NCBI GenBank assembly: GCA_009712185.1
Contig: WASQ01000019.1
Coordinates: 1 to 47,702, forward strand
DNA length: 47,702 bases
From: Telmatospirillum sp.
Lineage (GTDB): Bacteria; Pseudomonadota; Alphaproteobacteria; Rhodospirillales; Magnetospirillaceae
Direction of reading: 5' to 3'
The notes beneath the pieces were generated by a model, which saw nothing but the letters and a program-made list of their open reading frames with translations, did no database searches and was not told the DNA's origin. The position numbers and the translations under genes were made by a program. The first letter of the stretch is position 1. Every line of letters begins with the position of its first letter. Shown piece by piece: positions 8,127-38,240 of the stretch.

Positions 8127-8531
8127 TCACGGCGCCGGCCTGCCCCGTCCGGACAGGCATCGTTCCAGCAGGTCGAACACTTTCTGAGTATCGACCGGTT
8201 TGGTGACATGGCCGTCCATTCCGGCGGCCAGACATCGCCCCTCATCATGTTCGGCGGAACCGGCCGTCATCGCGATGATGGGCAGCAGACCTCTGGCTCC
8301 GGCCAGCGACCGGATCGCCCGCGTGGCCTCCAGCCCGTCCATCTCCGGCATCTGAATATCCATCAGGACGGCATCGAAGCTTCCTTCCGCCACCGCCTCG
8401 AAAGCCGCCTTGCCGTCACCCACGACCGTCACCTGATGGCCGAATCGCGTCAGCAGGGCCTGCGCGACCTTCTGGCTGATCAGATTGTCCTCGGCCAGCA
8501 GGATCCGCAAAGGCGGCAGGGTGGACGCCAT
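8127..8531 (-). CDS. Single-domain response regulator (CheY-like receiver)
   Basis: A 134-residue receiver domain with no output domain. Acidic pocket residues are Glu14/Asp15 (LLAEDN), the phospho-acceptor is Asp58 (VLMDIQMPEMDG), the switch Thr is Thr89 (MTA) and the conserved Lys is Lys111 (TKP). The NxxSQKVA and MPEMDG patterns resemble receivers of hybrid kinases, so it may be a shuttle between phosphorelay proteins. The start at 8531 (MASTLPPL) is chosen because GGAG lies 6 bases upstream. The longer frame would need TTG at 8582 without a good ribosome site. No kinase is adjacent. Two CCTTAAGG palindromes lie upstream. Confidence 0.9.
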   Translation of the reverse strand: MASTLPPLRILLAEDNLISQKVAQALLTRFGHQVTVVGDGKAAFEAVAEGSFDAVLMDIQMPEMDGLEATRAIRSLAGARGLLPIIAMTAGSAEHDEGRCLAAGMDGHVTKPVDTQKVFDLLERCLSGRGRPAP

Positions 8532-8969
8532 CGTCGTCTCCATCATTTTCGGGCGCTGTTCCTTAAGGGGTCGGTCTGTCAATCGGACAACTCTACCTTA
8601 AGGCGGGATGTGGCGATAGCATTTCACGGGTTGTTTGATGTCCGGCACAAGTCCATCACGGGGATGGTGACCAAAAGTTCTATGTCCGGTCATGACCCGG
8701 GGCCACCGGATCGGCACGGCGTCCCCTCGATCCTTTGGCGTGGGAAACGATATGACGAAAAGAAACCTGCCGGGGTAGTCCTTCCTTGGTTAGTATGAGA
8801 GTATGAAACAGACGATCGTCGCCGATATTCTCGAAATTTTTATGCCGAGTCCTGGGAATGCGCCGACAGATCGAAGTAAAACGGGTTTTCCGGGACGCCA
8901 TCAGGCCGTTGACCTTCCATCGGTGCCATGGCGTCGCCGCGTGTAATTTCGAGCCGGGTGGAAAGAGCG
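8532..8969. other. Divergent control region, 438 bases
   Basis: It lies between the minus-strand receiver gene and the plus-strand coiled-coil gene, so it should hold both promoters. Two CCTTAAGG palindromes (8561-8568 and 8596-8603) are 35 bases apart, start to start. No convincing -35/-10 pair and no coding sequence were seen. Confidence 0.4.
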
Positions 8970-11870
8970 ATGGCCGAGGAAAAGCAGACCGCCGTTTTAT
9001 CGGATGACACCATGGTGGCCCCCTCCTTTCCCGTAGAGTGGCCGCCCTCGACGCCCCCCGAATCGCCGCCGCCGGCGGCGGAGCCGCATCCCGCAGGCGG
9101 GGCGATCCCGGCGCGGGACTCCGAGGGAGATGGCGGATGGCGGGGCCGTCTCACCTATGGAGGGGGCGCCCTGGCGAGCCTCGCCTGGCTCGCCGTCTGC
9201 TTTACCTATATCGACAAGGCTTTGGGCTGGAGCAACCTGTTCGATTTGCAACCTCCCGAATTCGGTGGCGCTGTCGGGGCGGCGGTGATGCCGCTGGCTA
9301 TCCTGTGGCTTGTGATCGCCTTTATCGACCGCGGCGCCATCATGAAGCGGGAGGCGCAGGAATTGCGCCGGTATCTGGACCGCCTGACCTATCCGGCCGA
9401 CCGGGCGGAGGAGCGTGTCGCCCGCATTACCGAATCCCTTCGCCACCAGTCCGAGGCCCTGAGCGAGGCCTCGGATCAGGCGATCCGGAAAGCCGAGCAG
9501 GTCCGGGAGGAGCTGGCGCGGCAGGCCGGAACGCTGGGTGATCTGGCGTCGCGGCTGGAGACGGGGACACAATCCGTCGTGGCTGCCCTGAAGACGGAAA
9601 TCGAGGCTCTTGGCGCGTCATCGGAGGGCGCCTTGCAGCGCGTGGCCGAGATTCGCGATATGACCCGCGATCTGACCGTGGCGACGGGGGAGGCGGTCGA
9701 GCGCGCCAGAACGTTCGGCGACGGCATCGGTGCCGAGATCGCCCGTCTCGAGGAGGCATCGACCTCCACCGCCCGGAAGGCCGAACAGGCTTGCGCGGAT
9801 GTCGGGCGCGCCGTCGACACGCTGGGCCGCGCGGTTGGCACGGCCACCCAGTCGGTGGACGAGATTTCCCGCGTGATCGCGCAGCAAAGCGAGACCGTTT
9901 CGCGGTCTGTCGCCCTGTCAGGCCAGCGGGCCGCCGAAATGACCGAGGATCTGCGCCGCAGAGCGGAGGCGCTGGATCAGCTTTTCTCCCGCCAGAGTGC
10001 GGAACTGGCCAACGCCTCCTCGCGGCTCACCGAACAGGCCGGCCGCGTGGGCGAGGTCCTGGAGCAACAGGCTTCCGGCCTCGATCAGGTCACCGACAGG
10101 GTGTTGGCCCGGGTCAAGATCGTGGAGGAGGGGCTGGGCGTGCAGACGCGCGAGCTGTCGTCCGCTTCCGATCAGGCCATGGTCCGCTTCCGCGAGTTGT
10201 CCGAACAGATGGTCCGGCATGTGGACAGTTTGAGATCGGCATCCGATGAGGCCAGCCAGCAGTTGGGGAATGTCGGGGAAGTGTTCCTGCAAAGGCGCGA
10301 CGAGATCGAGACCGCGGCGGAACGCGCGATCGGTCGCGTCCGCGAAGCCGGCGAGGCCTTCTCGGGACAGAACAGGTCGCTGGCCGTGGCGTCGGATCAG
10401 ATGACGGTTCGCGCGCGTGAGCTGAACGACGCCTTGCAGGCGCATGTGGATGCGTTGGGACGGGCCGCGGAGAAGGCGTCGGCACAGGCCGAGTCGATCC
10501 GCCTCAGTCTCAAAGGACAGGCCACGGAACTGGCGGACATCGCCAATCTGGTGGCGACCCAGACGAAACTGTCGGAGGCCTCGCTTGGTCAGCAGTCCCG
10601 CCATCTCCACTCCACGTCGGAGCAGATCATGGCGCGGGTCAAGGGCGTCGCCGACGTCCTGCGGCAGAATGTCAACGATCTGGTCGCGGTTTCAAGCCGC
10701 GTCAGCGCGGATCTCCAGTCGGCGGGAGAGGTGCTCCGGCTTCACAGCGAGGAGGTCGCCCAGTCCTCGCAAAGGGCGGTCGAGGATGTGCAGCGGGTTG
10801 CGGATCTGTTCGACGATCGCAGCGGCCACCTTGCGCAGTCGGCGGAACAGGCTGGCGTCCGCCTTCGGGCGGTTGGCGAAGACTTGCGCCGGCAGAGCGA
10901 GGTGATCACTCAGGTCGGCGCCCAGGCCGAGTCCGCGATCGGCGCGGTCGGTCAGTCGGTTCGGGTCCAGACCGGCGAACTGACGCGGGTCGCCGGCGAT
11001 TCTTCGGATTTGCTGAAGGCGTTCGGCCAGCAGTTGCGCCAGAATGCCGCCGAATTGTCCGATACGGTTCAGCAGGCGCAACTCCAGGTGCGGGAGTCGG
11101 GCGATTCGCTCCGTCAACTGGCCTTGGAATTCGAGGAAACAGCGGGAAAAACGACCGCTCAGGTGGTCACCACGGCCGACCAGTTGCGTGGCGGGATCCG
11201 CGATCTGGCGGCGTCCTCGGACCGTATCACGGCGCAGGTGCGTGGCGCCGGCGAGAGTCTGCGCCGTCAGTCTCAGGAATTGTCGGATGCTACCGAACAT
11301 ACGGCGACGCAGCTTGAGAGCGTCTTCGAAATGCTCCGCCAGAAGTCCGGCGATCTCGGCCTGACCGGAGAGCGCCTCTCCCATCATACCGACGCCATGG
11401 TGCAGTCCTTTGCCCGGCAGGCGGAGGATCTCCTGTCCGCCTCCCGGGAGGCGGAGGAACAGGCCGCGCGGCTTGAACAGAACCGTAGCGCCGTGGGTAT
11501 CGAGAACTTCCTGCAGACAGCGGCCTATGTGGTCGAAAAACTGCAATCGCTGTCGGTCGATATCAGTCGCATCTTCCAGTCGGGAATCGATGACAAGACC
11601 TGGAAGGAATTCCATTCCGGCGACCAGTCGGTGTTCCTCCGGAAAATTCTGAAGAATCTCGACCGCCACCAGATCGCCGCGATCCGGACGCGCTACGAGG
11701 AGGACGGACAGTTCCGGGATTATGTGAACCGCTATCTCGCGGAGTTCGAGGCCCTCCTCAATCAGGCCAAGACCTCGGATCGCGCGGATGTCCTGACCGG
11801 CACCTTTACCAGCGCCGAAGTGGGAAAACTCTATCTCGTGCTGGCGAGGGCCCTCGGCCGCCTGGAGTGA
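8970..11870 (+). CDS. Membrane-anchored giant coiled-coil protein, TipN-like architecture
   Basis: A 966-residue protein. Residues 1-60 are Pro-rich. Two hydrophobic helices lie at about 62-80 and 100-120. Residues 125-840 are predicted coiled coil and 850-966 a compact C-terminal region (IENFLQTAAYVVEKLQSL to the LARALGRLE end). The rod is strikingly regular. Residues 160-334 hold seven 25-residue units, then 7 residues break phase, then residues 342-841 hold twenty more in perfect register, of the form QSxELxxASDQAxxxVxxxGExLR. Twenty-five residues equals 7+7+11, a coiled-coil period. Two N-terminal membrane helices plus a long cytoplasmic coiled coil is the plan of Caulobacter TipN, a pole marker; that assignment rests on architecture only. 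ATG 8970 is preferred over 8928 because GGAAAGAG lies just upstream. It is monocistronic. Confidence 0.8.
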   Translation: MAEEKQTAVLSDDTMVAPSFPVEWPPSTPPESPPPAAEPHPAGGAIPARDSEGDGGWRGRLTYGGGALASLAWLAVCFTYIDKALGWSNLFDLQPPEFGGAVGAAVMPLAILWLVIAFIDRGAIMKREAQELRRYLDRLTYPADRAEERVARITESLRHQSEALSEASDQAIRKAEQVREELARQAGTLGDLASRLETGTQSVVAALKTEIEALGASSEGALQRVAEIRDMTRDLTVATGEAVERARTFGDGIGAEIARLEEASTSTARKAEQACADVGRAVDTLGRAVGTATQSVDEISRVIAQQSETVSRSVALSGQRAAEMTEDLRRRAEALDQLFSRQSAELANASSRLTEQAGRVGEVLEQQASGLDQVTDRVLARVKIVEEGLGVQTRELSSASDQAMVRFRELSEQMVRHVDSLRSASDEASQQLGNVGEVFLQRRDEIETAAERAIGRVREAGEAFSGQNRSLAVASDQMTVRARELNDALQAHVDALGRAAEKASAQAESIRLSLKGQATELADIANLVATQTKLSEASLGQQSRHLHSTSEQIMARVKGVADVLRQNVNDLVAVSSRVSADLQSAGEVLRLHSEEVAQSSQRAVEDVQRVADLFDDRSGHLAQSAEQAGVRLRAVGEDLRRQSEVITQVGAQAESAIGAVGQSVRVQTGELTRVAGDSSDLLKAFGQQLRQNAAELSDTVQQAQLQVRESGDSLRQLALEFEETAGKTTAQVVTTADQLRGGIRDLAASSDRITAQVRGAGESLRRQSQELSDATEHTATQLESVFEMLRQKSGDLGLTGERLSHHTDAMVQSFARQAEDLLSASREAEEQAARLEQNRSAVGIENFLQTAAYVVEKLQSLSVDISRIFQSGIDDKTWKEFHSGDQSVFLRKILKNLDRHQIAAIRTRYEEDGQFRDYVNRYLAEFEALLNQAKTSDRADVLTGTFTSAEVGKLYLVLARALGRLE

Positions 11871-38050: not shown

Positions 38051-38104
38051 GTATTGGGTGGGGCGGGCGCTGCACGGTGCGATCGGTCAATTTATCCCCG
38101 GGGC

Positions 38105-38240
38105 CAATGTATGAACTCCAGGGAGCTGTCCCTGCCGGAATCGTGGTTCCGGTATATGGTTCCCACCTGCTAAGTGCAGGCCACGGAGGGATTATGCTAC
38201 CGGACGGCCGAGGCGGCTCCGCCCTGCTTTCATTTTGTTC
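38105..38240 (+). ncRNA. ssrS: 6S RNA
   Basis: It lies between zapA and the 5-formyl-THF cyclo-ligase gene, the standard 6S RNA site. The sequence folds into the expected rod. A closing stem pairs ATGAA with TTCAT, CAG with CTG and GGAGC with GCTCC. The central bubble comes next. The upper stem pairs CCGGTA with TACCGG, TCCC with GGGA and CTGC with GCAG around loop TAAGT. The ends are approximate. 6S RNA mimics an open promoter and binds sigma-70 RNA polymerase in stationary phase. Confidence 0.7.

Follow-up and report, generated by a model that had tools for sequence, protein, structure and literature searches.

Layout of the rod protein

The window analyzed here is the whole 47,702-nucleotide stretch of Telmatospirillum sp. 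contig WASQ01000019.1. Its subject is one forward-strand gene whose predicted product of 966 amino acids (aa) carries N-terminal membrane helices, a long rod made of 25-residue repeats, and a C-terminal domain (Table 1). An in-frame ATG upstream, at 8928, offers an alternative start that would give 980 aa; in the 966-aa frame starting at 8970, coordinates 9447-11492 correspond to the rod, residues 160-841. A sequence-only reading of the window had proposed a membrane-anchored rod, and hydropathy bears out the anchor: residues 101-119 form a strong predicted helix (mean hydropathy 2.54, against a protein maximum of 1.15 elsewhere), and residues 67-85 a weaker one (1.43). Rods were compared across 93 proteins with rods of at least 150 residues (that of the window and those of 92 other loci, with 20 of the 93 belonging to the window's own family). 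At a hydropathy threshold of 1.5, two N-terminal helices were found in 71/93 proteins and one in 18/93, the window protein included. In the window's family, the stretch ahead of the rod, measured from the preceding stop, was 111 to 248 residues long. Third codon positions held most of the nucleotide differences between the window rod and three relatives (141/98/357 in 682 codons for L060).

Table 1. Features of the window, with the evidence on which each was placed.
Feature	Coordinates	Strand	Basis or content
Coding sequence of the rod protein, 966 aa	8970..11867	+	N-terminal tail, membrane helices, 25-residue-repeat rod, C-terminal domain
Two predicted membrane helices, then an Arg/Lys-rich stretch	9168..9326	+	hydropathy
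Rod part A, residues 160-341; its seven units begin near 160, 185, 210, 231, 256, 281, 306	9447..9992	+	self-comparison, unit decoding
21-residue unit (25-4), residues ~210-230	9597..9659	+	unit decoding, family alignment
36-residue unit (25+11), residues ~306-341	9885..9992	+	unit decoding
Rod part B, residues 342-841; 20 units, each exactly 25 residues long	9993..11492	+	self-comparison, decoding, alignment
C-terminal domain, residues 842-966, all helical in a low-confidence model	11493..11867	+	homology to RgsE C-terminus; profile-level to probable TipN
Single-domain response-regulator receiver (Response_reg, E 1.5e-24), divergent neighbor	8127..8582	-	association a lead only
6S RNA (RF00013)	38064-38223	+	49.5 bits vs cut-off 46.4

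The 25-residue repeat and its hydrophobic period

The 25-residue repeat is real. Self-comparison of residues 135-850 gave peaks at offsets 25, 50, and 75 (z = 14.4, 14.2, and 14.1). In 1000 shuffles, with all 130 offsets considered, z never exceeded 4.3. Further offsets compatible with a coil (32, 36, and 11) gave z = 5.9-6.9. Units are ~20% identical at offset 25, and they are therefore old and diverged. As a control, 679 open reading frames (ORFs) of at least 300 aa from the same loci, none of them overlapping the rod gene, had a median z of 0.2 at offset 25, with a maximum of 9.9, while the 92 homologous ORFs had a median of 11.5, and 55/92 lay above the control maximum. The control maximum came from a pentapeptide-repeat gene and the next value (8.6) from the antisense shadow of that gene; such a gene mimics the 25-residue signal in autocorrelation because its 5-residue period divides 25. 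A pentapeptide-repeat gene adjoins the rod gene at L086 (2480-4003, minus strand). A literature search for a 25-residue repeat together with coiled coils and bacteria found no such paper, and a looser search listed one that uses the term 25-residue a single time (PMC11676326).

Decoding with a 25-state unit profile resolved 27 units in total, of which 25 are 25 residues long, with a start every 25 residues from 342 onward. The sequence-only reading had described the first seven units and the last twenty as uniform and separated by a single 7-residue slip. The off-diagonals and the twenty exact units stand, but the slip is the net of two changes: -4 near residue 232, which leaves a 21-residue unit, and +11 near 339, which leaves a 36-residue unit. 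A third register change, near 133, lies ahead of the rod. Part A also holds seven units as proposed, although two of them depart from 25 residues. Residues 160-334 are weak when taken alone (z = 4.1 and 5.3 at offsets 25 and 50, with a best any-offset shuffle of 5.7), so that offset 25 is not significant there by the any-offset standard. We accept the repeat in part A because the family profile and alignment back it.

Of the residue preferences that had been described for the units, those at positions 1 and 5 were recovered. In part B, position 5 is hydrophobic in 20/20 units (Leu in 16), and position 1 is polar in 18/20, with Gln in 10 and another polar residue in 8. The strongest hydrophobic period over residues 160-841 was 3.572, equal to 25/7 (3.5714), with a peak ratio of 26, whereas 200 shuffles gave no ratio above 9.5. 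In the consensus unit the core falls at positions 23, 1/2, 5, 8/9, 12, 16, and 19, and their spacing of 3 and 4 corresponds to one hendecad and two heptads, so that the earlier proposal of a 7+7+11 coiled coil is supported. For a helix without distortion, the value is 3.63 residues per turn (PMC9858780, excerpt); the rod period is smaller, and the coil would therefore be weakly left-handed. Leu 5 has core neighbors four residues off on either side, which would put it at the hendecad position that faces the axis, where a large residue would favor more than two strands.

Length and register within the family

The family alignment comprised 20 proteins (the window protein and 19 relatives) from 14 genera, with rod pairwise identities of 39-96% (median 50%). 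Across the 682-residue rod, the single indel among these proteins was one of 4 residues at 228/229, and the last 20 units had none. The four extra residues were present in 12/19 relatives, while the 21-residue unit was shared by the window and 7/19; the -4 change of the decoding agrees with the alignment, since those 12 relatives have four more residues at this point. The +11 change was decoded in 19/19 relatives. Ahead of the rod, 7/19 relatives had three more residues at 122. The most conserved unit positions were 1, 5, 12, and 23 (0.86-0.89), and position 1, although mostly polar, was conserved like the core Leu (0.86 vs 0.87).

The C-terminal domain and its relatives

We used the last 125 residues of the protein as a domain marker, and later a 63-row profile, A1. 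The marker was found in 34/41 near relatives, the window's own genome included, and in 71/190 genomes drawn evenly from the class; with the profile, the even draw gave 75/190 (61/153 among good-quality genomes only). In a draw from the phylum, the profile matched 59/249 genomes, all within the class (59/67 class genomes), and 0/182 outside it. The domain has a wide but patchy distribution, and all its matches lay within this class. A statement that most alphaproteobacteria carry it was dropped, as a few large families supply much of the phylum draw, and the same profile matched 75/190 genomes when the class was drawn evenly. No Pfam model matched the window's C-terminal domain, and 63 domain members yielded four weak Pfam hits to three families (best E 0.0009). 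A scan of viral contigs found no relative. In G003, a 0.9-Mb genome from the same genus as genomes of 5.7-7.1 Mb, the rod gene was not found, while MreB was kept.

Thirteen of the 59 phylum-draw matches were weak (E 5e-11 to 5e-7) and came from family f39, in frames of 329-377 aa. Short frames with a weak match, mostly 297-408 aa, occur in these 13 genomes and in G061, G086, G108, G112, G151, G166, and G192, and accompany a long copy in G061, G086, G112, and G192. These frames may come from a distinct short relative in which the rod is minimal or missing.

A search of a plasmid collection matched the domain to a 2089-aa coding sequence annotated as "kinesin" on a 3.7-Mb S. meliloti record. RgsE has 2,089 aa and is homologous to GPR, which has 2,115 aa; distant homologs of it occur in Emcibacterales and Rhodospirillales (PMC7327166, excerpt). 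We took the S. meliloti sequence as RgsE because its length equals the published one. The window's C-terminal domain is 35% identical to the RgsE C-terminus over 113 ungapped residues. RgsE/GPR, which the sequence-only reading did not name, is the closer characterized relative. The window protein shares the homologous C-terminal domain with RgsE, whose sequence served for the comparison; predicted N-terminal membrane helices, the second strong and the first weak, and a very long, putatively helical rod would be further features in common with RgsE and GPR. In contrast, RgsE and GPR are ~2,100 aa rather than 966, and the RgsE rod has a period of 3.654 (11/3) with 22- and 11-residue repeats rather than 3.572 (25/7). 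GPR of Agrobacterium forms a hexameric ring at the growth pole, and removal of 221 or 332 aa from its C-terminus strongly blocks complementation (PMC8262873).

GPR is classed as an apolipoprotein with bacterial kin mostly in Rhizobiales (PMC8262873), and PF01442 is the best Pfam match of the window protein as well. The window protein could accordingly be imagined as an apolipoprotein-like surface scaffold, whose amphipathic rod helix would lie on the inner membrane and organize lipids as proposed for GPR, with no projecting coil. We consider this unlikely. While RgsE matches PF01442 with 257.8 bits (E 7.6e-77), the window protein scores 32.2 bits (E 1.1e-7) against a cut-off of 90. Its seven core positions per 25 residues, spaced by 3 and 4, make a narrow stripe, and a period below 3.63 (PMC9858780, excerpt) specifies a left-handed supercoil, unlike the 11/3 of Rhizobiaceae-type rods. 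Filing the protein as GPR was rejected, as it was tested for the PF01442 cut-off and the 22-residue period and has neither. Human apolipoprotein A-IV, a small soluble lipid-binding protein, resembles the window protein weakly in its amphipathic repeats (phmmer E 0.0012), a similarity that is likely compositional, and it has neither the membrane anchor nor the C-terminal domain.

A much less probable alternative is that the rod is an arm that transmits force or a signal in a ZorA- or TolQ-like ion-driven complex. RgsE interacts with TolQ in two-hybrid work (PMC7327166, excerpt), and residues 602-840 of the window protein give a weak NCBIfam ZorA match (E 1.7e-4). That match covers the rod only, at 20 bits against a cut-off of 190, and the Pfam matches, taken up to E 1, included no MotA, ExbB, or TolQ family. 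The ZorA, MCE, apolipoprotein, and DUF948 matches all fell short of their cut-offs, and we read them as resemblance between coiled coils.

The sequence-only reading had likened the protein to TipN for its N-terminal helices and C-terminus, and a profile comparison bears this out. Ten Caulobacteraceae genomes were chosen from 80 loci reached via PopZ. In a profile search, 9/10 had one C-terminal domain match each (E 2.7e-17 to 9.3e-10), while the tenth, a metagenome-assembled C. vibrioides, had no match. Measured from the first ATG, three of the matched proteins are 888 (L241), 890 (L233, C. vibrioides OR37), and 892 aa (L235) long, and TipN is 882 aa (PMC13170164, excerpt). A profile of the nine Caulobacteraceae C-termini, none of which is in A1, aligned with A1 at 98% probability in hhalign (E 4e-15, 111 columns). 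Given the three lengths near 882 aa and this profile match, we call the nine proteins (L233-L241) probable TipN. They share profile-level homology of the C-terminal domain with the window protein, and would have N-terminal membrane helices and a long coiled coil in common with it; they also show a weak 25-residue signal (z = 4.5-7.0) and a section without indels in all nine (~224 to 698 of L241). They differ in a somewhat shorter rod that decodes with 7-13 register changes, a period of ~3.59 over the first 470 rod residues, and an indel-rich linker ahead of the C-terminal domain.

TipN is a new-pole marker; it interacts with ParA and recruits TipF (PMC9178275, excerpt). Papers have called it Caulobacter-specific or missing from most alphaproteobacteria (PMC4460556, PMC5182065, excerpts). 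The link between GPR and TipN is itself not new: GPR is said to have "similarity to" TipN (PMC8546619, excerpt), and TipN has been called "analogous" to GPR (PMC13170164, excerpt). A common C-terminal domain of the two is not stated in the available portions of these last two papers.

Rod variation across the class

Among the 93 rods, the best offset was 25 or 50 in 75, and the other 18 peaked at 11, 14, 18, 22, 29, 32, 36, 39, 44, or 47; the median hydrophobic period was 3.572. Four Rhizobiaceae-type rods (L135, L140, L142, and RgsE itself, L141) had periods of 3.654-3.662, equal to 11/3, with 11- and 22-residue repeats, while L136 had offset 29 with a period of 3.624, and L101, L103, and L104 had intermediate periods of 3.616-3.634. 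The 25-residue unit is not universal. The strict unit that had been proposed describes most rods but not those of Rhizobiaceae type, and free variation of unit length among homologs, which the proposal itself had named as evidence to the contrary, was seen in a minority.

Rod length ranged from 366 to 1969 residues between families (89 uncut proteins), so that the suggested constraint on length applies within the window's family, but not between families. Other families of the same order were compared against L085 (29-42% identity over ~1,130 residues, with two edges set aside). There was no length change in L086 and L089, -1 near the end in L083, +11 in L088, +22 in L087, +196 in L082 (aligned as 100 and 96), and +588, or 3 x 196, in L084. 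The 196-residue blocks of L084 are tandem 8-unit segments (7 x 25 + 21) at residues ~500-1200 of its main ORF, with a core identity of 63-92%, which suggests fairly recent growth of the rod by whole blocks. In more distant class members (the L090 and L110 sets), indels were frequent and of many sizes; fixed rod length therefore holds within lineages only.

These observations also bear on whether the protein is a structural rod with no role in polarity. Its repeats would then reflect a generic coiled-coil constraint plus drift, and its length would be conserved since indels are disfavored in any coiled coil. In favor of this reading, long coiled coils generally avoid indels, the rods of different families differ several-fold in length, distant members have frequent indels, and the units retain little identity. 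Yet the C-terminal domain is common to two proteins of known polar function, and the mostly polar position 1 is as conserved as the core Leu. We regard a purely structural rod as improbable, to about the same degree as the apolipoprotein-like scaffold.

A pairing of 22-residue rods with loss of MreB was considered and dropped, as the link is not strict. Both genomes with 22-residue rods that were searched (G109 and G227) lacked a strong MreB match and had only matches with E near 1e-16, which we take to be related ATPases. Three genomes with 25-type rods, G013 (L065), G138 (L109), and G205 (L100), likewise lacked one. G013 belongs to the same family as the window and is listed as 100% complete; its best E to the MreB model is just 3e-17, unlike G000 and G003, and this may be an assembly gap.

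A candidate polar or division-site scaffold

We estimate a probability of roughly 0.6 that the protein is a polar or division-site scaffold of the TipN and GPR/RgsE kind: anchored in the inner membrane, cytoplasmic, and carrying a 25-residue coiled-coil rod of lineage-fixed length. The two N-terminal helices, the first of them weak, would hold the protein in the inner membrane. The rod would be one long helix with a hydrophobic face that recurs in a 7+7+11 pattern every 25 residues, most likely forming an in-register parallel coiled coil of ~100 nm (682 residues x 0.1485 nm). The conservation of a polar position 1 on a par with the core Leu, together with the near absence of indels, suggests that axial register matters, and it may serve self-assembly or the spacing of the membrane from the C-terminal domain. 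That domain, the part common to distant relatives, is probably the partner-binding end. By homology, the most likely job would be to mark or organize the new pole or division site, where the protein may position partners in envelope synthesis, flagellum assembly, or chromosome segregation. The analysis establishes the repeat, its period, the indel pattern, and the homology and taxonomic spread of the C-terminal domain; from sequence and homology we infer membrane insertion, the cytoplasmic rod, the parallel oligomer, the polar or septal site, and the partners of the C-terminal domain.

The host genome encodes MreB and a DUF2497 protein, a family that we take to be PopZ. In both respects the host is nearer to Caulobacter than to Rhizobiales, which would make a TipN-like landmark role likelier than a GPR-like growth ring. 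Scy and FilP, the DivIVA-like cell-division and polar proteins of actinobacteria, may offer a parallel in working principle only: their non-heptad rods have hendecads and small core residues (PMC9858780, excerpt), as opposed to 7+7+11 in the window protein. No DivIVA domain was found among the window protein's Pfam matches up to E 1.

Several observations weigh against the scaffold reading. The domain is absent from 115/190 class genomes in the even draw (profile A1), and therefore the role cannot be universal. Queried as a whole, the protein matched RgsE in its C-terminal part only (residues 853-965), and its host encodes MreB, unlike the Rhizobiales where GPR works. Indel avoidance is usual in long coiled coils and is by itself no proof of a ruler. 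The identification of TipN rested on length, membrane helices, and uniqueness rather than on an accession, and the six remaining Caulobacteraceae candidates, measured likewise from their first ATG, have lengths between 823 and 1026 aa. The domain match to TipN is at profile level, and the genome search spanned 74-86 of the 125 positions in 6/9 Caulobacteraceae. In a tree of 93 C-terminal domains, the Caulobacteraceae group together at the end of a long branch (2.19 changes per column); resolution of the tree is poor, and it carries a warning of too few columns. Structure models were made of the window sequence only; AlphaFold without an alignment gave, at low confidence, a helix with short breaks over residues 101-842 and an all-helical C-terminal domain, and its mean predicted local distance difference test scores (52.5 for the whole protein and 53.5 for the domain) are too low to prove a fold or an oligomer.

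Neighboring genes

The gene divergently upstream of the rod gene encodes a receiver domain in the window and in 3/3 same-genus loci. A small Hpt gene takes its place in 12/92 loci, including those of S. meliloti, Shinella, and Sphingomonas (L116, L119, L130, L131, L132, L134, L135, L138, L140, L141, L142, and L143). The divergent receiver or Hpt gene may reflect a phosphorelay link or lineage history.

Implications for the family

The comparison suggests that differently named polarity proteins belong to one widespread family. In its fullest form, which we put forward tentatively and with less confidence than the scaffold reading, a single alphaproteobacterial family of polar rods would underlie TipN, GPR/RgsE, and many unnamed proteins, with the membrane anchor and the Pfam-less C-terminal domain kept throughout. 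The rod would act as a modular ruler, with a unit of 25 residues (7+7+11) in most sampled lineages, 22 (11+11) in those of Rhizobiaceae type, and 29 in at least one. Its length would be fixed within a lineage and altered in steps that preserve helix phase (4, 11, or 22 residues, or whole 196-residue blocks). The difference in rods may also explain why relatives were missed: of three rods scanned, only the 22-residue rod of RgsE scored over the apolipoprotein cut-off. If the proposal is true, the domain common to TipN and GPR, carried by 75/190 even-draw class genomes, would join them in one wider family and would likely be their common functional end, and the rod would follow a testable rule, in which length changes of 25, 11, or 7 residues should work and other amounts should not.

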